A stretch of 11,675 nt of DNA from Promethearchaeota archaeon (GTDB taxonomy: Archaea; Asgardarchaeota; Lokiarchaeia; Sigyniarchaeales; SOKP01). The stretch spans positions 1 through 11,675 of the forward strand of contig JAEORV010000012.1 of assembly GCA_016840695.1 (NCBI GenBank), read 5' to 3'. The translations under genes and the position numbers were made by a program. A model generated the notes under the pieces. That model saw only the letters and a list, made by a program, of their open reading frames with translations. It ran no database searches and had not been told where the DNA came from. The stretch's first letter is position 1. Each line of letters opens with the position of its first letter. Of this stretch, positions 2,039 through 11,675 are shown piece after piece.

Positions 2039-3328
2039 TTATTTTGAGGCATTAATAATCTTTTTGCCATTCATGTATTTTTGAAGTACTTTAGGAATTG
2101 AGACAGAACCATCCTCGTTTTGATAATTTTCCAAGATACAACAAATCGTGCGTTCCGTAGCAATTGCCGTCGAGTTTAATGTGTGTACGATTTGTTTTTT
2201 CTCAGATGTTCCAACCTTTCCCATGCGAATTTTTAATTTTCTACCTTGATAATCTAAACAATTGCTACACGAAACAAGTTCTCGATAGTTTTCTGCCGCG
2301 GGAAACCACGCTTCAAGATCGTATTTCTTTGCCGCATTATCGTTTAATTCCCCTGAGGCTATGTTTACAACCCTATATGGAAGTTCCAATTGCTTGTATA
2401 TTTCTTCGGCGTTAGCAATGAGTTCTTCGTGGAGTTCCCACGATTCTTCCGGTTTTGAAAATATAAATTGTTCAATTTTTTCAAATTGATGGATTCTAAA
2501 TATCCCTAAGGTGTCCTTTCCATGCGATCCGGCTTCTCTTCTAAAGCACGATGATACTCCTGCATATTTGAGTGGTAGTCGTTCTGGTTCAAGAATCTCG
2601 TCGTAATGAAAAGCAGCTATGGTTTGTTCCGATGTTGCAATCATGTATAAATCCTCATCGTGTATTTTGTATAATTGTTCTTCGAAGTCAGCTAGCTCTG
2701 CCGCTGCTTTAATTACTTCGTACTTGATGAAAAAAGGCGTCCACATGGGAGTAAATCCCTTATTTTCTAAAATATCTAATGCAAATTTCAAAAGGGCGAG
2801 GTTTAGCATTACCAAATCGCCTTTTAAATAGTAGAACCTCGATCCAACCACTTCTGAGGCTTTTTTCGTGTCCGCTCCTCCTGTTGTTTCAATCAATTTC
2901 ACGTGGTTTAACGGTGTAAAATTGAATTTTGGGATTTTTCCAATTGTTCTTTCTATTCCATTCCCTTCTTCTGTTTCTGCGATTGGTACTGATTCGTGTA
3001 TAATGTTTCCTACAACATATCGGTATTCGTCTCTCAACTGCTCATATTGTTTCTTTTTTTGTTCGAACTCCTCTTGTTGTATTTTTAGCTCTTTAACTTC
3101 TTGTTTCAACTCTTCAGCTTTCTCTTTTTCTCCAGCCTTAATTAACTTTCCTATTTCTGGATTTAACTTGTTAAGTTTCTGCCTTACGTCTTCGTACTTC
3201 TTTAGCGCTTCTCTTAATTTTTCATCGAATTCCAGCACTTTCTTCGCATTCGTAGGATCTTTAAACCTTTTTTTCTCTGAATCGATAATTTTTTCTAAAT
3301 TTGTTCGGAACAATTCAATATCAAGCAC
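2039..3328 (-). CDS. serS: seryl-tRNA synthetase (standard class II type)
   Basis: Cytosolic enzyme that charges tRNA-Ser, and also tRNA-Sec with serine as the first step of Sec synthesis. The 429 residues match the usual length. Residues 1-110 form the antiparallel coiled-coil arm that grips the tRNA long arm. The catalytic core shows the serine-site TSE (232-234), motif 2 with FRREAG (262-267) followed by FRIHQFEKIEQF (277-288), and motif 3 with the ATERTICCILENYQ segment containing the ATP-binding Arg393. It is the common SerRS and not the rare methanogen-type enzyme. The start is GTG (3326-3328), supported by a GAGGG ribosome site about 10 bases upstream and by the family N-terminus MLDIELFR. 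The downstream coiled-coil gene follows closely. Its presence beside selenoprotein genes is fitting but may be coincidence. Confidence 0.97.
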   Translation of the reverse strand: MLDIELFRTNLEKIIDSEKKRFKDPTNAKKVLEFDEKLREALKKYEDVRQKLNKLNPEIGKLIKAGEKEKAEELKQEVKELKIQQEEFEQKKKQYEQLRDEYRYVVGNIIHESVPIAETEEGNGIERTIGKIPKFNFTPLNHVKLIETTGGADTKKASEVVGSRFYYLKGDLVMLNLALLKFALDILENKGFTPMWTPFFIKYEVIKAAAELADFEEQLYKIHDEDLYMIATSEQTIAAFHYDEILEPERLPLKYAGVSSCFRREAGSHGKDTLGIFRIHQFEKIEQFIFSKPEESWELHEELIANAEEIYKQLELPYRVVNIASGELNDNAAKKYDLEAWFPAAENYRELVSCSNCLDYQGRKLKIRMGKVGTSEKKQIVHTLNSTAIATERTICCILENYQNEDGSVSIPKVLQKYMNGKKIINASK

Positions 3329-3658: not shown

Positions 3659-4096
3659 TTAATTAGATTTTTTAAAAGGACCTAATTTTTTAATTTGATT
3701 CGTGAACTCAGTCACTACTTCTGACCACCGTTTGCCTTCAGAAGCACTAACCCATTCTAATCTAACTCGTTTCTCGTCAATTCCTAATTGCTTGATTATG
3801 ATTTTATGTAATTTCTTGAATCTTTCGTCCGTGTATTCGTTCCCAGAAATGTAGTGGCAATCTCCAATGTGACACCCACTTAGAAGCACGCCGTCAGCTC
3901 CATCTTTTAACGCTTTCAAGAGGAAGGTAGGATCAACTCTTCCCGAGCACATGACTCGAATGATCCTGATGTTTGGAGGATACTGAAATCGTGAAACTCC
4001 CGCTAAATCTGCGCCGGCGTACGAACACCAGTTACAACAAAACGTCACGATGTTAGGCTCCCATTCCTTGCTTGCTTTTTTTTTAGATTTTGACAT
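3659..4096 (-). CDS. mvhD: MvhD family [2Fe-2S] electron-transfer subunit, cysteine form
   Basis: MvhD is the small adaptor that docks a hydrogenase (or formate dehydrogenase) to HdrA and carries one [2Fe-2S] cluster. The 145-residue protein shows the family Cys pattern: FCCNWC (Cys20, 21, 24), VMCSGR (Cys50) and SGCHIGDCHY (Cys75, Cys80). An N-terminal Lys-rich stretch precedes the domain. The ATG lies three bases after the UGA stop of hdrA, with GGGAGG at 4108-4113 as a good ribosome site inside the end of hdrA. It is in the same frame as hdrA, separated only by UGA and one Lys codon, so a fusion would form if that UGA were decoded. The Sec-containing counterpart is at 10870-11289. Confidence 0.93.
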   Translation of the reverse strand: MSKSKKKASKEWEPNIVTFCCNWCSYAGADLAGVSRFQYPPNIRIIRVMCSGRVDPTFLLKALKDGADGVLLSGCHIGDCHYISGNEYTDERFKKLHKIIIKQLGIDEKRVRLEWVSASEGKRWSEVVTEFTNQIKKLGPFKKSN

Positions 4097-4099
4097 CTT

Positions 4100-4102
4100 T
4101 CA
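4100..4102 (-). other. UGA stop between in-frame hdrA and mvhD
   Basis: The Cys-type hdrA ends in UGA. The next codons in the same frame are AAG and then the ATG of mvhD, so this UGA is the only barrier to a continuous 1182-residue HdrA-MvhD product. The GGGAGG ribosome site just before it argues for normal stop and re-start. The genome evidently decodes some UGA codons as Sec, so leaky decoding is possible. No Cys counterpart is known to me at this linker position. Confidence 0.6.
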
Positions 4103-7100
4103 CGCGTCCTCCCTTGTTTCGATTTTTTCTAATAAATAGGAATCTATCATGGTATTTATCTGGTTAAAATCGTAATGTTTGACTGAGATAGCTCCTACAG
4201 GGCAGGTGGCTGCACAAGTTCCACATCCCTTGCATAAAGCTGAATTTATTGACGATTTTTTAATGGTCATGCTGATGTCTTCGAATTCCATTATTTCTTC
4301 CGTAAGGCTTATAGCATTATAGGGGCACACATCAACGCACTTACCGCACCCTATGCATTTTTCTGGAATAACTGCTGCTACTAATCCGGATGTCGTGATT
4401 TTATCAGCACTTAAGAAACGACTTGCTCTTCCTGCTGCGCCGTTTGCTTGCGCTATTGAATCTTGAATGTTTTTTGGCCATTGAGCGCAACCACATAGAA
4501 ATATTCCATCTGTAGCGAAATCTAAAGGTCTCAATTTCACGTGAGCTTCCAAAAAAAATCCGTTTTTGTCTAATGGGACTTTCAGCATCATTGCCAATTC
4601 CTTTAGATTATCTGCTGGCACCATTGGAGTTGCAAGCACGAGTAAATCGGTTTCAAATTCCATATTGTCCTGTAAATTCGTATCAAACATTTTTATCCCG
4701 TACTTTTCTGGCTTGTTGCCTTTTTTCTTGATTTCTGGTAATCTCTCTAAATCATATCTCAAGAAAATCGCATCTTTTCTCCTTTCTCGGTAATAATCTT
4801 CAAATTCTTTCTTAGCCATTTGAAGGTCCCTGTAGAGTACCACGATTTCGAGATCTGGTTTTAATTCTTTCAGAATCTTCACGTTCTTAATTGATGTTGC
4901 GCAACAGATATTTGAACAATATGTTATTCCTTTTTTCTGCCGGGCATTAACGCATAACATTATCGTAACGCGCTTTACACCATCAAGCCACGATTTATCT
5001 TTTCCATTTAACCTTTGTTCTAATTCCATTTGAGTGATAACATTTGTGTTTTTCTCGTTATATTCAAACAATCCATCAGGTTTGTGTTCTTGTCCACCAG
5101 TTGCGACAATAATGGTACCAATTTTTAATTCTTGAACTTTATTGTCTGAATCTAAAATCGAAACGTCGTAATTTCCAACATATCCTTTAATGCTTTCTAT
5201 CTTGGCGTTTAGAAATAATTGAATGTTATTGTTTTTCTCAACTTTATCTTTGGTTTCGTTCAGTAATTCCGACGCGTTCTTGTGAACCGGGTAAAGCACA
5301 TTCAGGTATTTTAAATTTCCTCCTAATTCCTTTTCCTTTTCGACCAAGTAGGTCTTGAATCCTTGATTGGCAGTGTTTAACGCCGCACTCATGCCTGAAA
5401 TGCCGCCTCCAATAACTAAAGCAGTGTGAGTTATGTCAATTTTGTGCTCCATCTGGGGTTGCAATAACCTTGATTTTGAAACGTGCATTCTAATCAGGTC
5501 GATGGCCTTTTCTGTTGCGGCTTCCTTTTCAGTCATGTGAACCCAAGAACACTGATCGCGTATATTCACGAGCTCAAAAAGGTATTTATTCAATCCTGCT
5601 TCTTGGCATGTTTCTTGAAATAGCGACTCGTGCGTTCTTGGAGTGCATGATGCGACTATGAATCTATTTAAATCGTGTTCGGCGATTAATTCTTTAATTC
5701 TAATTTGTGAATCAGAAGAGCACGAATATAAGTTTGCCTCGCACACTACCACATTTGGCAAGGTTTTCACGTATTCTGCAACCTTCGGAACATCAACATA
5801 ATTCCCTATGTTTATTCCACAATGGCATACCATGACACCGATTCGGGGTTCGTCTGTTAATTTCACTTGTTTTTCTGCTATCTCAAACACTTTTTCTTTC
5901 ACCTGCGTGTATTTGACAGAACTCAATTGGTCAGCGATTTGCGCGGCTACTCCACTGGCGTCAGCAACGGTCTCTGGAATGTCCATTGGACCTTGACAAA
6001 ATCCACATAAATACACGCCATCTCTTGAAGAAGATAATTTCTCAAAATAAGACTTTTCTTGAAAGAAGTTATATCTATCCAAATCAATATTTAAAGCTGC
6101 TCCTAACTCTTTAACTCCTTTTGAAGGAACTAATGGCGATTGCAGTACTACTAGATTTGCTCGAAACACTTTAAATTCTCCAGATTTGAGGTCTTCGTAG
6201 CGAATGATTAAATCGTTCGTTTCGGGATCTTCTTCTATGGTACTTATTTTGGACTGAAAATATATCACTCCATATTCTTCTTGTGCTCTTTGGGTAAATT
6301 CGTAGAAATTTTTACCATAAGCCCGAATATCGTGTCTAAAAACGTAGCAACTTGAGTTTTCAGAATGTTCTTGAGTGATAATCGCTTGCTTTGCAGTGTA
6401 AGTACAACAAACGCTGGAACAGAAGGGGACGTCTTCGTGCAAATCTCTCGAACCAGCGCATTGAATGAAAGCAATTACTTCAGGCTCTTTTTCATCGCTT
6501 AATCTAATAACATGTCCACCAAACGGACCAGAAGCGCATAAAATTCTTTCATATTCTAAACCACTGACAACATTTTTAAAACGATATCCCCATCTTGAAG
6601 ATAATTTCTCGGCAGGCATTTCGAATCCAGTCGCAACTACCACCGCTCCGACTTTAATATCAAATTCTTGCGGTTGTTGCTCGAAATCTATCGCGTCCGC
6701 AGGGCAGGCTTTTTTACATACCTGACAAACTCCTTTGGTTAGGTATAAGCACATTTCTGAGTCGATCAAGTAAATTGGAGGGACTGCCTGTGGAAAGGGT
6801 ATATATGCCGATTTTCTCTTACCTATGTTCATTTCAAATGGATTTGGAGCCATTATTTTTGGACACTTTGCTGCGCACTCTCCACAACCTTTACACTTTT
6901 CCTCGTCGATATATCGGGGTTTTTTAAGGATTGTTGCCGTAAAATTACCAGGATCCCCAGTAACTTTCAACACTTCATGATAAGTCATTAATTCTATGTT
7001 TGGATTTCTAAAAACTTCGACCATTTTTGGCGCGAGAATACATAAAGAACAATCCAACGTTGGAAATGTTTTATCTAATTGTGCCATTCTCCCACCTATA

Positions 7101-7207
7101 GAAGGAGTCTTCTCTACTAAATAAACTTTAAAACCTAATTCTGTCAAATCTAACGAGATTTGAATTCCTGCTATTCCTCCACCAATTACTAACACGGAAC
7201 CTTCCAT
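4100..7207 (-). CDS. hdrA: HdrA-like flavoprotein with two FAD modules, cysteine form
   Basis: Cytosolic FAD and iron-sulfur subunit of heterodisulfide-reductase-type complexes, the electron-bifurcating core. The 1035 residues contain two HdrA-type modules. Module 1: FAD-binding VIGGGIAG (7-14), FPTLDCSLC (48-56), an inserted ferredoxin pair (Cys105/108/111/115 and Cys153/161/164/168), and the C...FCSSVCC region (250-268). An HdrA N-domain follows, with VCHC (460-463), SCSS (495-498) and ASCTP (519-523). Module 2: FAD-binding VIGGGISG (598-605), YCSNICC (763-769), and a C-terminal ferredoxin pair (Cys951/954/957/961 and Cys992/995/998/1002). Module 2 lacks the FPTxDCSxC cysteines, having YPVHKN there, and lacks an inserted ferredoxin. 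The methanogen HdrA is about 650 residues, so this is the elongated tandem type. GGAGG at 7218-7222 precedes the ATG, two bases after the upstream HdrD-like gene. It ends in UGA. Confidence 0.95.
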   Translation of the reverse strand: MEGSVLVIGGGIAGIQISLDLTELGFKVYLVEKTPSIGGRMAQLDKTFPTLDCSLCILAPKMVEVFRNPNIELMTYHEVLKVTGDPGNFTATILKKPRYIDEEKCKGCGECAAKCPKIMAPNPFEMNIGKRKSAYIPFPQAVPPIYLIDSEMCLYLTKGVCQVCKKACPADAIDFEQQPQEFDIKVGAVVVATGFEMPAEKLSSRWGYRFKNVVSGLEYERILCASGPFGGHVIRLSDEKEPEVIAFIQCAGSRDLHEDVPFCSSVCCTYTAKQAIITQEHSENSSCYVFRHDIRAYGKNFYEFTQRAQEEYGVIYFQSKISTIEEDPETNDLIIRYEDLKSGEFKVFRANLVVLQSPLVPSKGVKELGAALNIDLDRYNFFQEKSYFEKLSSSRDGVYLCGFCQGPMDIPETVADASGVAAQIADQLSSVKYTQVKEKVFEIAEKQVKLTDEPRIGVMVCHCGINIGNYVDVPKVAEYVKTLPNVVVCEANLYSCSSDSQIRIKELIAEHDLNRFIVASCTPRTHESLFQETCQEAGLNKYLFELVNIRDQCSWVHMTEKEAATEKAIDLIRMHVSKSRLLQPQMEHKIDITHTALVIGGGISGMSAALNTANQGFKTYLVEKEKELGGNLKYLNVLYPVHKNASELLNETKDKVEKNNNIQLFLNAKIESIKGYVGNYDVSILDSDNKVQELKIGTIIVATGGQEHKPDGLFEYNEKNTNVITQMELEQRLNGKDKSWLDGVKRVTIMLCVNARQKKGITYCSNICCATSIKNVKILKELKPDLEIVVLYRDLQMAKKEFEDYYRERRKDAIFLRYDLERLPEIKKKGNKPEKYGIKMFDTNLQDNMEFETDLLVLATPMVPADNLKELAMMLKVPLDKNGFFLEAHVKLRPLDFATDGIFLCGCAQWPKNIQDSIAQANGAAGRASRFLSADKITTSGLVAAVIPEKCIGCGKCVDVCPYNAISLTEEIMEFEDISMTIKKSSINSALCKGCGTCAATCPVGAISVKHYDFNQINTMIDSYLLEKIETREDA

Positions 7208-7209
7208 TA

Positions 7210-8472
7210 TTATTTAACCTCCTTCTTTTTCTCTACTTTATGTATTAAATTAACGAAAAATTCAGAAACATCTTTTATTTCAATTGACGCAATATCCTCA
7301 AAATCGTTTTGAAGACAAGAAAAATGAAGGATGCACTTTGGGCAGGAAGTCACCATCGTGGTACCTGCAGCTTTTGCTTCTAAAAGTCGTTTATATCTTA
7401 ACGCCTTGGATCTTTCATTACAATTCATCCAAGAGCTCACACCGCAACACAACGCATTTTTCTTATTATGTTCCATTTCGTTGAAAGAATAACCTAAACT
7501 TTTTAATTTTCCAAACATCTCACGAATATCTTCTATTAGAGTGCTCTCTTTCGGTAAAAACCTATTTAGCCGGCAAGGGTCGTGATACGTGAATTGAACA
7601 TCAACTAACTTGTCATCTGGATTTTTAAATTCGATTTCTCCTTGCTTCCATTTCTCGTAGATGTATTCTAAAACATGTTTTACTTCAAACTTGTCGCTAA
7701 AATCGTCAAATAACTTTGAATATTCCACTTTTAAAGTTCGATATCCTTCAGCGCAGGAAGTTATGATGGTTGAAACTCCCGCTCTTTCAAATAATTCGTA
7801 ATTCTTCTTTGCTAAGTCGATGAAGGCTTCGAATTTACCTTGCCCCCAGTATAAATCGTGACCACAACAACTCTCGTCTTTCCGGACGACAATTGGTTTA
7901 TCTTCAATTTTAGAGATTATTTTTAAAGTGTCAGAAGGAACATTATCCAATTCGTCAAACTCAAATTTAAAATATGGTTGACATCCAACAAAATACATGA
8001 TCTCTCCTGTATCGGAGATTTCACATTCTTTTGGAACCCAACTAAGATCCCGTTTTGGTTCCATGTGTGAATAACTCATGAGTTCTGAAATAGTCGTGTA
8101 CATGGCTTTATGAGCGATACTGTCATCCAAACATTGTGCATCTCTCTGCCTCATTTTATATCTTGCCATTCTCACGATGTCAGCAAAATTTACATCCTCT
8201 GGACAATTCTGCAAGCAGCTATTGCATGTTAGACAATCGTTTAAAATGCCACTAGTAATTATCTTCTCTTCAAATCCTTCTAAAATTTCTTGAATAATTC
8301 TACTAGGTGTAAATTTTTGAACTTTAGATAATTGACAAATTCCAGAACATCGGGCGCATTGATAACATCTCCTTAGTAACTTTCTCATTTTAGGTTCATA
8401 AATCTTATCCATGTAAACTTCATTATCGCTGAAAACTGGTTTTATTTCTCCCTTCTTCTTCATTTGAGTCAT
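7210..8472 (-). CDS. hdrD: HdrD-like heterodisulfide reductase subunit (HdrC-HdrB fusion)
   Basis: This 420-residue soluble protein has the HdrD layout: an HdrC-like part with two [4Fe-4S] motifs (Cys36/39/42/46 and Cys80/83/86/90), followed by an HdrB-like part with two CCG domains that in HdrB bind the disulfide-reducing clusters. CCG domain 2 is complete (Cys300, Cys342-Cys343-Gly, Cys377xxCys380). Domain 1 has Cys164, Cys202-Cys203-Gly and Cys240, but the last cysteine is replaced (CAEG). There is no membrane segment and no HdrE neighbour, so it most likely works with the HdrA encoded two bases downstream as a soluble complex. The disulfide or other acceptor is unknown, since no methyl-CoM reductase genes are seen. 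The ATG at 8470-8472 has only a weak ribosome site; an in-frame ATG at 8461-8463 is an alternative start. Confidence 0.9.
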   Translation of the reverse strand: MTQMKKKGEIKPVFSDNEVYMDKIYEPKMRKLLRRCYQCARCSGICQLSKVQKFTPSRIIQEILEGFEEKIITSGILNDCLTCNSCLQNCPEDVNFADIVRMARYKMRQRDAQCLDDSIAHKAMYTTISELMSYSHMEPKRDLSWVPKECEISDTGEIMYFVGCQPYFKFEFDELDNVPSDTLKIISKIEDKPIVVRKDESCCGHDLYWGQGKFEAFIDLAKKNYELFERAGVSTIITSCAEGYRTLKVEYSKLFDDFSDKFEVKHVLEYIYEKWKQGEIEFKNPDDKLVDVQFTYHDPCRLNRFLPKESTLIEDIREMFGKLKSLGYSFNEMEHNKKNALCCGVSSWMNCNERSKALRYKRLLEAKAAGTTMVTSCPKCILHFSCLQNDFEDIASIEIKDVSEFFVNLIHKVEKKKEVK

Positions 8473-8490
8473 TTTACTTTACCCAATCGT

Positions 8491-8498
8491 TATAAATT
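8491..8498 (-). promoter_or_regulatory. possible TATA box of the Cys hdr operon
   Basis: On the minus strand the sequence AATTTATA lies about 20 bases before the first ATG (8472) and 30 before the second (8463). With the usual archaeal spacing the transcript would start near 8465-8469. That would favour a leaderless mRNA that uses the second ATG, shortening the HdrD-like protein by three residues. Confidence 0.35.
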
Positions 8499-8576
8499 GT
8501 AATCTTTTCTAATAATTCTCTACTTTTTATCATTATCACTATAATAAGAATCATGTTGGGGATTTAATTTATCTTT

Positions 8577-8593
8577 CGATTATATTTTAATCG
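8577..8593. repeat. inverted repeat CGATTA / TAATCG
   Basis: Perfect 6-bp arms with a 5-base loop (TATTT). The right arm overlaps AATCGTG (8589-8595), whose inverted copy CACGATT lies at 8654-8660. In the middle of a divergent promoter region these are plausible regulator-binding arms; no T-run follows, so they are not an obvious terminator. Confidence 0.4.
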
Positions 8594-8718
8594 TGCCCAT
8601 TAATGATAATTTGGTAAATCTTTTACAGAAAAAATGTTTCACTTCATATAACACACGATTGAAGATAATAAAACTCAAAAAAAACAAACAAAAAAATTAT
8701 TAAATTTCTGAGTTGCAC

Positions 8719-8746
8719 TAATAAAAGATAAGATTTAGTTTTATTA
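8719..8746. repeat. inverted repeat TAATAAAA / TTTTATTA
   Basis: Perfect 8-bp arms enclose a 12-base loop (8727-8738) upstream of the Sec hdrA promoter region. The arms are A/T only, so chance is a fair explanation in this background. It lacks an AUGA/UGA core and does not look like a 5' SECIS. Confidence 0.3.
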
Positions 8747-8790
8747 TCCGAAAATTAAAATTTATTCAATTATTTCCTACTTCAAGGAGA

Positions 8791-8810
8791 TTTTAAATTA
8801 TAATTTAAAA
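8791..8810. promoter_or_regulatory. 20-bp A/T palindrome, likely TATA region of the Sec hdr operon
   Basis: The 20 bases TTTTAAATTATAATTTAAAA are a perfect palindrome, centred about 51 bases before the hdrA ATG. The purine run AAGGAGA (8784-8790) lies directly upstream, as a BRE element would. A transcript starting about 25 bases downstream would carry a leader of roughly 25-30 bases that includes the AGGTGG ribosome site. Confidence 0.45.
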
Positions 8811-8840
8811 AATTTAAAAATTATTGGTGGTACATAACAA

Positions 8841-8846
8841 AGGTGG
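8841..8846 (+). promoter_or_regulatory. ribosome binding site of Sec hdrA
   Basis: AGGTGG lies five bases before the ATG at 8852 and matches the archaeal anti-Shine-Dalgarno core. It fixes the start at 8852, 48 bases upstream of the first in-frame UGA, and so argues that the region before the first UGA is translated. Confidence 0.75.
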
Positions 8847-8851
8847 ATTTG

Positions 8852-10849
8852 ATGTCTGAAAATCAGACCAATGCTAAAATAGGAGTCTATGTTTGTCGGT
8901 GAGGAGTAAATATCGGTGCTGCTGTTGATTGCGATGCTGTCAGAGAATTCGCAGAGGCCTTACCTAATGTAGTCCATACTAGATGCAATGATTTTACATG
9001 TAGCGACCCTGGGCAAGAACAAATAAAAAACGATATCATGGAGTTAGGTTTAGATAGAGTCGTTGTTGCCTCTTGAACTCCCAAAATTCACGAACCTACT
9101 TACAGGTCGGTATTATCTGATGCGGGATTGAGCCCATATTTCTTTCAAATGGTCAATATACGGGAACATTGTTCCTTCGTCCATTTTGACGATCGTGGAA
9201 AAGCAACGGAGAAAGCTAAAAGACTAGTTCAAGGGGGAGTGAATCGTGCGAGAGAATTAGAAGTAATCCCTCGAAAAGAAATACCCGTTGAAAGAGCTGC
9301 GTTAGTTATTGGAGCGGGAATTGCAGGTATGAATGCTGCGTTGGATTTAGCAAATCAAGGGATACAGGTGCATCTTGTCGAAAAAGAACCCACAATTGGT
9401 GGCATGATGGCAATGTTAGACAGGATATTTCCAACGGACGATTGTGGAATATGAGTCCTGGCACCAATCATGGTAAACGCCGCAAAACACCCCAATATCA
9501 CGCTTTATACTTATAGCGAAGTTGTAGAGTTTAGCGGCAACACGGGCAATTTCAATGTAAAAATACGAAAAAACGCGAGATATGTGGACGAAAAGAAATG
9601 CACGGGCTGCGGTCTGTGTACAACGAAATGTCCCATAAAAGTTCCGAGGGAATTCGACCGTGGTATCGGCGAACGAGGTGCCATTTATATACCTTTTCCT
9701 CAAGCTGTTCCCAAAATAGCTTTAATCGATAAGGAAGCATGTATTGACTGCAAGAATTGCCAGAGAGCGTGCCTTGCTGAAGCAATTGATTTTGAACAAG
9801 AGCCAGAATACATTGATGTGAAAGTAGGTGCCGTCATCGTTGCAACCGGGTATGATGAATATCCAATAATGAAGTATAACGATTATAATTACGGAATATT
9901 ACCTGATGTCATAACCCAAATTGAACTTGAGCGGATGTTAAGTCCAATCGGACCTACGGGTGGACATGTATATCGTGTATCGGATGGAAAGGTACCTAAA
10001 AAGATCGCAATGATACAATGTGTTGGTTCGCGATCCGTGAACGGCAATCCTTATTGTTCGGTTGTTTGCTGCAGTGTTGCGCTGAAAAACGCTCAATTGT
10101 TAAAACAAGAATACCCTGATATAGAAATAACGCTATTTTATATAGATATTCGAACACCAGATAAGGGAAACGAAGAATATTATAGAAAAGTAAGGGATTA
10201 CGATATTAACATCATTCGAGGAAAGGTTGGCGAAATCACGCAAGATCCTGAAACTAATAAATTAAATGTAAGAGCATATTCGTCTCTAACTGATAATATT
10301 ATTAACTTAGACGCAGATCTCGTTGTCTTGTCAACAGGAATTATTCCTTCAAAAGGAACCGAAGAGGCGATTGAAACGCTCGGATTATCCAAGGGACCAA
10401 GCGGATTTTTATCTGAAAATCATGTGTGTTTGAGCCCTCAAGAAACAAAAAACGTCGGAATTTACATCTGTGGATGTGCAGCGGGTCCAAAAAACATTCC
10501 GTATTCTGTTTCCACAGCGTTAGCAGCTTCAAGCAAAGCTGCGATCATTTTATCAAGTGATACTTATAGTCAGGAACTCATTATTGCTGAAGTAAATGAC
10601 GATCTCTGTATGGGATGCCATAGGTGCGAAAAACTCTGCGAATACGAAGCGATTCGCGTGAACGAACAGGATATTGCAGTTGTTGACGATTTAAAATGCA
10701 AGGGCTGCGGTGTATGCGTTACCTCTTGTCCTGCAAGGGCAATTGACTTGAAATATTATAGAGAAAAGCAACTCACGGAAGAAGTCAAGGGAATTGGAGC
10801 TTTTTGCGTAGAGACAGCTGATATAAAAAAAGAAGCCGTAAAGGAGTAA
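8852..10849 (+). CDS. hdrA: HdrA selenoprotein with three Sec residues
   Basis: Classical HdrA, 665 residues when three in-frame UGA codons are read as Sec (residues 17, 75, 201). Order of parts: HdrA N-domain with VCRU (14-17), FTCS (48-51), ASUTP (73-77) and EHCS (106-109); FAD-binding VIGAGIAG (152-159); FPTDDCGIU (193-201); inserted ferredoxin pair (Cys250/253/256/260 and Cys297/300/303/307); YCSVVCC region; C-terminal ferredoxin pair (Cys586/589/592/596 and Cys616/619/622/626). Each Sec aligns with a Cys of the 1035-residue paralogue: VCHC, ASCTP and FPTLDCSLC. The surrounding reading frame is intact and conserved on both sides of every UGA, so decay or sequencing error is very unlikely. 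Sec-containing HdrA is known in methanogens, and Lokiarchaeota selenoproteins with several Sec residues have been described. Without Sec decoding the product would stop after 16 residues. The gene ends in UAA, 20 bases before mvhD. Confidence 0.95.
8900..8902 (+). other. UGA codon read as Sec17 of HdrA
   Basis: Gives VCRUG in the HdrA N-domain, aligned with VCHCG (Cys463) of the Cys paralogue. This cysteine pair belongs to the presumed cluster-binding set of the N-domain. Confidence 0.92.
9074..9076 (+). other. UGA codon read as Sec75 of HdrA
   Basis: Gives VASUTPKIHE, aligned with VASCTPRTHE (Cys521) of the Cys paralogue, a highly conserved HdrA motif. Confidence 0.93.
9452..9454 (+). other. 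UGA codon read as Sec201 of HdrA
   Basis: Gives FPTDDCGIUVLAP, aligned with FPTLDCSLCILAP (Cys56) of the Cys paralogue, next to the FAD-binding fold. Confidence 0.93.
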
Positions 10850-10869
10850 ACTAATAGAGATGAATAATC

Positions 10870-11289
10870 ATGACAGAAACGAAAACAGAACTTTCAAGGA
10901 GAATTATTGCGTTTGGTTGCGATAAATGAGGATATTCTGCCGCAGATTTAACAGGAACTACTCGAAAACTTTATACTACTGATGTTCATATAATAAGAGT
11001 GAAGTGCACGGGAAGAATCGGGATTCATATAATCATGGATGCGTTTCTCAATGGAGTAGATGGCGTAGCAATAATCTCTTGAAAGGAAGGTGAATGCGAA
11101 TTCGGAAGAGGAAACATGAACACATACGAACACGTTAACTTCTTAAAGAAGCTTTTCGATCATTTAGGAATTTCTGGAGATAGAATACAGCAATATTTCT
11201 GTTCAGCAGCGGAAGTGGAAAAGTTTATATCTTCTGTAGAAGATATTTCCAAAAAAATTCACGCGTTACCTCCTCTACCAAAAAAATAA
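10870..11289 (+). CDS. mvhD: MvhD/VhuD selenoprotein with two Sec residues
   Basis: MvhD adaptor with one [2Fe-2S] cluster, expected to feed electrons to the HdrA encoded 20 bases upstream. It is 139 residues when two in-frame UGA codons are read as Sec (20 and 71). FGCDKU (15-20) aligns with FCCNWC of the Cys form, VKCTGR (44-49) with VMCSGR, and SUKEGEC (70-76) with GCHIGDC. So Cys21, 24, 50, 75 and 80 of the Cys form correspond to Cys17, Sec20, Cys46, Sec71 and Cys76, while the first Cys of the CC pair is Gly16. The downstream half (TYEHVNFLKKLFDHLGI) matches the family and shows the frame is real. Sec-containing VhuD is known from methanogens. The ATG at 10870 follows an in-frame UGA at 10861 and has only a weak AGAGATGA ribosome site. 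The gene ends in UAA. Confidence 0.93.
10927..10929 (+). other. UGA codon read as Sec20 of MvhD
   Basis: Gives GCDKUGYSAADL, aligned with CCNWCSYAGADL of the Cys paralogue, a conserved [2Fe-2S]-region cysteine. Confidence 0.92.
11080..11082 (+). other. UGA codon read as Sec71 of MvhD
   Basis: Gives IISUKEGEC, aligned with LSGCHIGDC (Cys75) of the Cys paralogue. The following conserved Cys is kept as Cys76. Confidence 0.91.
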
Positions 11290-11360
11290 TCCGAATGAGG
11301 ATGAATATCCAATAAAAATAATAGATTGGATACAACTGACCCTTAGCTAGGGTGTTCGGA
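11290..11360 (+). promoter_or_regulatory. candidate SECIS element in the 3'UTR of Sec mvhD
   Basis: A structured stretch begins right after the mvhD UAA. Apical stem: TATCCAAT (11306-11313) pairs with ATTGGATA (11325-11332), 8 bp, around an 11-base A-rich loop. Below it, 5' ATGAA (11301-11305) faces 3' TGAC (11337-11340), which gives U·C, tandem G·A/A·G and A-U: the kink-turn quartet of eukaryote-type SECIS elements with its conserved preceding A. A lower stem TGAGG (11296-11300) pairs with CCTTA (11341-11345). Outer arms TCCGAA (11290-11295) and TTCGGA (11355-11360) also pair. Weak points: a 4-base CAAC bulge (11333-11336), a short apical stem, and a competing hairpin ACCCT/AGGGT (11339-11353). 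The fold was made by eye. Confidence 0.6.
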
Positions 11361-11366
11361 ATGAAG

Positions 11367-11380
11367 TTTAAAATTTTAAA
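11367..11380 (+). promoter_or_regulatory. A/T palindrome, possible TATA region of the next gene
   Basis: TTTAAAATTTTAAA is a perfect 14-bp palindrome centred about 34 bases before the ATG at 11408, close to archaeal TATA spacing for a nearly leaderless transcript. It resembles the palindrome ahead of the Sec hdrA gene, though A/T richness alone could give both. It lies just after the SECIS candidate, so it may mark the end of that 3'UTR. Confidence 0.3.
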
Positions 11381-11407
11381 TAAGTAATAAAAGAATTGTA
11401 ATATAGA

Positions 11408-11675
11408 ATGGCAACTGAAAAAGATTTAACATGGGAATTTTTACATAGCGTTAATGAAACGCTAGATTCATATAGAGTTCGGGCGTTAATAGACGCCAAA
11501 AAAGATATCTTAGAAGCAGGGATTTACAACGAATCTCAATACTACGATATTTTATTCAAAATGTTTGACGAGGAAAGGTTGAAATACGCTTTATATGATT
11601 TTTTAAAAGATAATCAAGATAATAATTATAATACAATTAAAAAATATTCTCAAGATAATTCAATTGAATTTAGTA
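11408..11675 (+). CDS. unrecognised protein, N-terminal part only (cut by window end)
   Basis: An open frame from ATG at 11408 runs to the window edge without a stop (89 codons visible, starting MATEKDLTWEFLHSVNETL). It is acidic and Asn/Asp/Tyr-rich, probably mostly helical, with no Cys, membrane segment or recognised motif. The last 20 visible residues become a low-complexity Asn/Lys/Ser linker, which suggests that a second domain lies beyond. There is no GGAGG site. It is 118 bases after Sec mvhD on the same strand and could be co-transcribed or have its own promoter. The function is not recognised. Confidence 0.65.
   Translation, partial: MATEKDLTWEFLHSVNETLDSYRVRALIDAKKDILEAGIYNESQYYDILFKMFDEERLKYALYDFLKDNQDNNYNTIKKYSQDNSIEFS

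Follow-up and report, generated by a model that had tools for sequence, protein, structure and literature searches.

A lokiarchaeal HdrA gene with three in-frame UGA codons at conserved cysteine columns, and a proposed clustering of its selenocysteines on one inter-subunit iron–sulfur cluster

The window, i.e., the whole stretch of 11,675 nucleotides analysed here, carries on its plus strand an hdrA gene and an mvhD gene, both interrupted by in-frame UGA codons, and a SECIS-like element behind them, while a divergent operon in which the corresponding positions are all Cys occupies the minus strand (Table 1). The product of hdrA comprises an N-terminal Fe–S domain, a FAD domain, an inserted ferredoxin domain, and a C-terminal ferredoxin domain, and the motif AAGGTGG stands 5 bases upstream of its ATG at 8852. 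Minus-strand HdrA matches were also found by tblastn upstream of the Sec-HdrA orthologue in three of four named relatives. The same contig contains a gene for seryl-tRNA synthetase (2039-3328, minus strand), the enzyme that also charges tRNA-Sec, although its presence beside the selenocysteine (Sec) operon may be a coincidence. Behind the SECIS-like element, an open frame at 11408-11674 on the plus strand runs off the contig and has no Pfam match.

Table 1. Genes, in-frame UGA codons, and RNA features of the window, together with one frame from another contig of the same genome (last line).
Feature	Position	Strand	Remarks
hdrA	8852..10849	+	665 codons, three in-frame UGA, TAA end
UGA codon 17 of hdrA (Sec), CxU motif	8900..8902	+	UGA in 103/106 HdrAs including the window, Cys in 2, gap in 1
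UGA codon 75 of hdrA (Sec), ASUTP	9074..9076	+	UGA in 43/106 HdrAs, Cys in 63
UGA codon 201 of hdrA (Sec), CxxU	9452..9454	+	aligns with 5ODC Cys197; UGA in 103/106 HdrAs, Cys in 3
mvhD/vhuD (FlpD family)	10870..11289	+	139 codons, two in-frame UGA, 20 bases behind hdrA
UGA codon 20 of mvhD (CDKU)	10927..10929	+	UGA in 90/91 aligned MvhDs
UGA codon 71 of mvhD (ISUKEGEC)	11080..11082	+	UGA in 85/91 aligned MvhDs
SECIS-like three-way junction	11286..11368	+	directly behind the mvhD stop; covariance model R1, 88.9 bits (window among the 20 sources of R1)
SECIS lower stem, UCCGAAU/GUUCGGA	11290-11296/11354-11360	+	fold
SECIS AUGA	11301-11304	+	core
SECIS stem	11305-11313/11325-11333	+	fold
Second hairpin, ACCCU-UAGCU-AGGGU	11339-11343/11349-11353	+	between SECIS stem and lower stem
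HdrC/HdrB-like protein, divergent all-Cys operon	7210..8472	-	CCG and Fer4 domains
All-Cys type II HdrA (two FAD domains)	4100..7207	-	own stop is TGA
All-Cys MvhD (FlpD)	3659..4096	-	divergent from the Sec operon
159-codon frame, UGUU (three UGAs)	L178:632-1108 (G000:C486)	-	adjoins a CUU paralogue; own SECIS; relatives L182-L211

It is confirmed that positions 8852-10849 encode a full HdrA with UGA at three Cys/Sec columns. What was looked for in a selenoprotein HdrA, namely UGA at conserved Cys columns, homology on both sides, the full domain architecture, and alignment to solved HdrA proteins, was found throughout. The readthrough translation of 8852-10849 contains in-frame stops at codons 17, 75, and 201 only, and the probability that three random UGAs among 665 codons would all fall at the 33 Cys/Sec columns is 1.1e-4. 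A preliminary description, made from the letters of the window, had matched these codons with Cys residues of the adjoining paralogue and had claimed homology on both sides of each of them, and both statements hold: the paralogue reads VCHCG, ASCTPR, and FPTLDCSLC there, residues from 3-9 to 646-648 can be aligned by phmmer with five solved HdrA sequences, and in each of the stretches that the UGAs delimit, the first of which has 16 codons only, pN/pS against two named orthologues lies at 0.16-0.27. When the three columns were followed through the HdrA families, as had been suggested there, Cys or Sec stood in every relative reaching them. The truncated annotation that had been predicted also exists, since a database copy of 459 residues, annotated as 'heterodisulfide reductase subunit A' and with 97% identity, begins with the Met just behind codon 201. 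Moreover, the lokiarchaeal source that had been suspected agrees with the four named relatives of this HdrA (72-77% identity), all of them Candidatus Lokiarchaeota MAGs, which have Sec at 17 and 201 and Cys at 75 (TGT in the two with codons read). We infer that the UGAs of hdrA are decoded positions and not lesions.

To see which columns carry UGA, 106 HdrAs were compared, i.e., those of 100 chosen loci, the window, and five further loci of the same genome (L014-L018, two with UGAs and three all-Cys). The 100 loci, each with at least two UGAs, were picked by hand from at least 150 rows, leaving out partial rows, one UGA-free row, and some full rows; a count such as 103 of 106 therefore locates the UGAs among the columns and is no measure of the frequency of Sec-HdrA. 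Seven Cys columns (17, 50, 75, 201, 300, 303, and 619) hold 289 UGAs, as against 2 elsewhere, and codons 17, 75, and 201 are Cys or Sec in all 106 proteins (105 and one gap at codon 17). The two in-frame UGAs outside Cys columns, in L120 near codon 112 and in L131 at codon 164, are probably errors or lesions and give a gauge of the noise. Within this set, of which 100 members were selected for UGAs, HdrA has two Sec residues in 51 cases, three in 23, four in 27, five in 2, and none in 3. Sec at 17, 50, 75, and 201 together occurs in 25 of the 106, including two paralogues from the genome of the window (L014 on G000:C377 and L015 on G000:C94), both followed by an mvhD with two UGAs and a SECIS. 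The multi-Sec character noted in the preliminary description was thus underestimated, with four UGAs in two paralogues of the same genome and up to five in relatives.

Further UGAs were found at codon 303 in eight proteins (L097, L098, L103, L105, L108, L129, L145, and L160), at codon 300 in three (L165-L167), and at codon 619 in one (L148). In the inserted ferredoxin domain, the second and third Cys of a CxxCxxCxxxC motif stand at positions 300 and 303, and in the C-terminal ferredoxin domain the second Cys of such a motif stands at 619, the domain names being taken from papers; silent changes surround the conserved TGA at codon 303. Among 120 listed database proteins, 22 have 560-700 residues and were called with TGA as Trp, and they show Trp at column 17 in all 20 reaching it, at column 201 in 22 of 22, at column 75 in two, and at column 303 in four. 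On a tree built without the Cys/Sec columns, a quick method gave as the fewest Cys/Sec changes 1 at column 17, 8 at 50, 6 at 75, 1 at 201, 1 at 300, and 5 at 303; all Sec forms share Sec17 and Sec201, and columns 50, 75, and 303 switch repeatedly. In a less selected sample of 99 genomes of the phylum, for which the best HdrA matches were listed, three to five UGAs occur only inside the family of the window, and at most two outside it.

The machinery for Sec, which the preliminary description had expected in the same genome, was recovered in part. The MAG to which the window belongs (contig C93) has 2.68 Mb and is 74.36% complete, and tRNA-Sec with anticodon UCA (56.7 bits against an Rfam cut-off of 47), SepSecS (486.9 bits, with a match starting 75 bases downstream of tRNA-Sec on the same contig), and SelB (243.8 bits against 242.25, passing only just and only with in-frame neighbours) exceed their cut-offs, whereas the best SelD match in this incomplete MAG reaches 86.8 bits, below the cut-off of 125, and PSTK gives 0 matches.

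These data bear on three other ways of explaining the UGAs. If UGA were generally a sense codon in this organism, for instance for Trp, the full-length database proteins obtained with TGA called as Trp would be accounted for, but UGA stands almost only at Cys columns, a tRNA-Sec with a UCA anticodon is present, and TGA is the stop of many mvhD genes in relatives and of the Cys hdrA in the window itself, so that UGA is not generally reassigned; this explanation is already contradicted and has hardly any probability left. The same is true, with scarcely more in its favour, of a decaying pseudogene in the N-terminal region with expression of only the 459-codon part after codon 201, which is just the part that the annotation contains, since purifying selection acts before, between, and after the UGAs (with the reservation on the first 16 codons given above), UGA17 and UGA201 are each shared by 103 of the 106 HdrAs, and a SECIS is present behind the operon. 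It is more conceivable, yet still improbable, that Sec is real at 17 and 201 and that UGA75 of the window copy arose by a mistake in sequencing or assembly or by a recent harmful mutation. The Cys at 75 in the nearest named orthologues does count against the preferred explanation, TGT and TGA differ by one base, and the UGAs in L120 and L131 indicate that such errors or lesions occur. Nevertheless, 42 further HdrAs among the 106 also have UGA75, including five window-like proteins, two database proteins of other sources show Trp in this column, at least six changes of state are needed for it on the tree, and no further in-frame stop interrupts the 665 codons of hdrA. Decoding as Sec at all three codons is therefore preferred.

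The core of the SECIS-like element of the window reads AUGA-A-UAUCCAAU-AAAAAUAAUAG-AUUGGAUA-CAA. Type I elements were defined by a 5' AUGA, a 3' GA or AA, a stem of 7-15 bp, and a loop of 8-20 bases with leading As, and in the window these are represented by AUGA, CAA, 8 bp, and AAAAAUAAUAG, as in the type I eSECIS-like form. Among 85 aligned elements, AUGA is found in 84 and GA or AA also in 84, and GC stands in the loop of the second hairpin in 80. All 21 pairs changed on both sides in these 85 matches, with 91.9% of cells paired, as against 36-59% when the partner was slid by 1-3 columns as a control. Pair counts were made on an alignment of 20 sequences (A2) and on the 85 matches of the model built from it (A3), which leans towards its own structure; a MAFFT alignment (A1, 63 of 82) misplaced L168-L172 and was not a basis of the counts. 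At the level of known families, no Rfam SECIS family reached its gathering score in the window, and none was found at E<=10 in 8400-11675.

The covariance model R1, built from 20 elements, matches 93 of 103 Sec-hdrA loci, i.e., 84 of 95 loci and 9 of 11 further ones. Its misses among the 95 are three all-Cys loci, one contig end, and seven members of a diverged group (L168-L174), and those among the 11 are L077 and L079, both of which end too early. There is no R1 match in the all-Cys loci L016 and L018, and L017, with only 47 bases behind hdrA, is no real control. In 6 more Sec-hdrA loci, the element was found by a pattern search that applied fixed loop rules to the stretch between 6 bases ahead of the stop and 90 bases past it and gave an element in 82 of 91 loci; its nine misses were the all-Cys L016, L081 at a contig end, L128, L119, L123, and L165-L167, which R1 found, and L174, which was found by eye only. 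A search that took the best-scoring hairpin within 350 bases made implausible picks in a number of loci and was replaced.

No mvhD match was found by tblastn within 3 kb in 15 of the 106 loci, which comprise L077 and L079, ending early, the all-Cys L017 and L018, and 11 loci in which the element lies directly behind the hdrA stop (L096, L100, L101, L111, L113, L114, L116, L117, L120, L121, and L122). This placement means that the SECIS can serve hdrA itself. Across hdrA and mvhD there are up to seven UGAs, with one SECIS-like element behind the operon, and, judging from the sequence, this single element would direct Sec insertion at the UGAs of both genes. Against this counts that a lokiarchaeal vhuU SECIS was reportedly non-functional in Methanococcus maripaludis (PMC11881835). 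As a speculation, the second hairpin might bind the archaeal SECIS-binding factor.

When R1 was run on the window's genome, it matched at six places with E<=1, three behind Sec mvhD genes, two behind vhuU-like frames, and one behind a frame of 159 codons that contains the motif UGUU. The elements behind the vhuU-like small frames, which read FDCULSCAAH, are in L179 and L181 (G000:C296 and C203); their neighbours are a hydrogenase large subunit (L179) and HdrC/HdrB-like genes. The UGUU/GCUU family to which the 159-codon frame belongs occurs in 48 of 61 genomes of the window's family, with 66 matches, 62 of them with two or three UGAs and the remaining four ending before the site. Of its database relatives, 35 of 36 do not extend past the first UGA, and the remaining one, in which TGA was called as Trp, reads WGWW. 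In the GCUU family, one column is UGA in all 21 frames examined and the following column in 18 of them, and the sequence behind the pair is conserved; these 21 frames, lying on the plus strand of their locus, come from 17 of 30 loci. The second hairpin is also part of the SECIS of the UGUU/GCUU family (22 matches, some of them from outside that family), and an element much like that of the GCUU family stands at L175:3802-3873 on the minus strand, with no evident preceding frame in the translated stretch.

No Pfam or NCBIfam model matches the UGUU/GCUU family at thresholds, the one sub-cut-off Pfam match having an E of 0.21, and its AlphaFold2 prediction has a mean pLDDT of 52.6. Its neighbours were listed in 15 loci, with one gene per kind tested. 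At several loci they include an arsenite methyltransferase (over the cut-off in L198), an ACR3-type exporter (282.7 bits against a cut-off of 282.8 in L193), or ArsC-like or HgcA-like proteins (below the cut-off in L190 and L199, respectively); ferredoxins were identified by Pfam. At a guess from these neighbours and the vicinal Sec pair, the family may be arsenic- or mercury-binding. It is not among the seven selenoprotein families given in PMC11227280, and no description of the GCUU family was found in the main texts of open-licence papers.

The places of the Sec residues in HdrA can be read on solved proteins, because residue n of the window corresponds in the alignment to residue n-4 of 5ODC up to about residue 390, so that positions 15, 17, 50, 75, and 201 are Cys11, Cys13, Cys46, Cys71, and Cys197, respectively. 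In solved HdrA, the N-terminal Fe–S cluster receives one of its ligands, Cys197, from the other HdrA copy, and in fused or tandem HdrAs the N-domain resides in one copy and Cys197 in the other (PMC9012536). This complementary pattern was found again in the 48 listed homologues of at least 900 residues, all of which retain the four N-domain Cys; Cys198 and Cys201 are both present in 48 of 48 matches of the first FAD domain, and neither occurs in any of the 48 later matches. Since position 201 equals the partner ligand Cys197 and the long homologues show this complementarity, the most likely arrangement is a single inter-subunit [4Fe-4S] cluster with Sec17, Sec75, and the partner's Sec201 among its ligands. 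What counts against this reading is that five conserved Cys/Sec residues (15, 17, 50, 75, and the partner's 201) compete for four ligand places, and conservation does not single out the non-ligand Cys, all four N-domain Cys being retained in the 48 long HdrAs. Position 15 is Cys in 105 of 105 proteins and never Sec, and 17, 50, 75, and 201 all become Sec; if position 15 were the odd one out, the four-Sec paralogues would have an all-Sec cluster.

The Sec residues might also be real without being cluster ligands, with Sec201 and Cys198 forming, as CxxU, a redox pair at the FAD similar to that of thioredoxin reductase. CxxU is a classical redox motif and HdrA is placed under it in reviews (PMC13188914 and PMC9312934), but Cys197 is a cluster ligand according to structure-based text (PMC9012536), Fe–S ligation by the Sec of Hdr is stated in a review (PMC9499178), and the Sec residues at 17, 50, 75, 300, 303, and 619 are not CxxU pairs beside a flavin. 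The redox pair thus seems unlikely, if somewhat less so than an error at codon 75, and ligation of the shared cluster is the reading followed here.

In the proposed mechanism, the three UGAs of hdrA and the two of mvhD would be read as Sec by machinery of the archaeal/eukaryal type, and, to judge from their families, HdrA and MvhD would be the central part of a hydrogenase complex of the HdrABC-MvhADG type that bifurcates or confurcates electrons. Having selenolates as ligands would probably serve to tune the step beside the bifurcating FAD, in its potential, speed, or conformational gating; which electron branch is affected is uncertain, because two sources differ on the path through the neighbouring clusters. 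Sec17 and Sec201 would be a fixed pair, whereas 50, 75, and, more rarely, 300, 303, and 619 would go from Cys to Sec or back through changes of a single base; all seven are Cys positions and are proposed as Fe–S ligands. Overall, a lokiarchaeal Sec-HdrA with UGAs read via one SECIS, Sec residues on one inter-subunit cluster, and Cys/Sec switching at further Fe–S sites is considered quite probable. A bolder version is put forward only tentatively and is held to be somewhat less than an even chance: in HdrAs with Sec at four positions, all four ligands of one [4Fe-4S] cluster would be Sec (17, 50, 75, and the partner's 201), the window would be a three-of-four form, Sec would have spread by single-base changes to 300, 303, and 619, and one three-way-junction SECIS would serve up to seven UGAs.

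Sec is usually thought of as a catalytic residue, and here it seems to take the place of Cys at one ligand after another of electron-transfer clusters. With two, three, four, and five Sec residues in orthologues and paralogues of a single enzyme, nature would offer a graded series that would make the benefit of selenium to an Fe–S cluster directly testable. Moreover, one SECIS-like element would serve up to seven UGAs in two genes, in the archaeal group closest to eukaryotes. Proteins with multiple Sec residues have reportedly been met in Lokiarchaeota before, in three of five families (Mariotti et al. 2016), and multi-Sec forms of HdrA in Asgard archaea are probably already known.

Sec-HdrA beside Sec-MvhD with a common SECIS is already known in Asgard archaea (Huang et al. 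2024, PMC11227280): as in the window, an HdrA selenoprotein lies beside frhD/mvhD, in Lokiarchaeia among others, and shares a 3' SECIS with an AUGA_RA core. A Sec count for HdrA was not found in the main text of that paper, whereas the family of the window has a position map, two to five Sec residues, and Sec at ferredoxin ligands. The type I eSECIS-like elements described there, whose AUGA_AA form was published for Asgard hdrA/frhD, agree with the window in the AUGA_RA core, the stem of 8 bp (9 in many relatives), and the 11-base loop starting with AAAAA. The published model consists of core, upper stem, and apical loop; 'hairpin' does not occur in the main text, whereas the window adds a covarying second hairpin that makes the element a three-way junction. 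The HdrA of HdrABC-MvhADG (5ODC/5ODH) can be aligned over nearly its whole length and has the same Cys set, but with Cys at all five positions. The Sec-HdrA of Methanococcales is the same protein with one Sec (PMC13188914), and in the solved 9sfi_A, column 201 holds an X, taken as Sec, and columns 17, 50, and 75 hold Cys. This bears out, as far as seen, the earlier remark that methanogen HdrAs carry fewer Sec residues; the same inventory of 2026 gives two for MvhD/VhuD, and, of nine selenoprotein genes of M. maripaludis, only vhuD has two TGA codons (PMC9622424). In the main texts of open-licence papers, no convergence of Sec residues on one cluster, no Sec at ferredoxin-type ligands of HdrA, and no second hairpin of an Asgard SECIS were found, the term 'three-way junction' occurring once, in PMC2746813 on SECIS-binding proteins. 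Compared with these known systems, what the locus and its relatives would add, as read from their sequences, is the single-cluster interpretation, the Sec sites at ferredoxin ligands, and the second SECIS hairpin.
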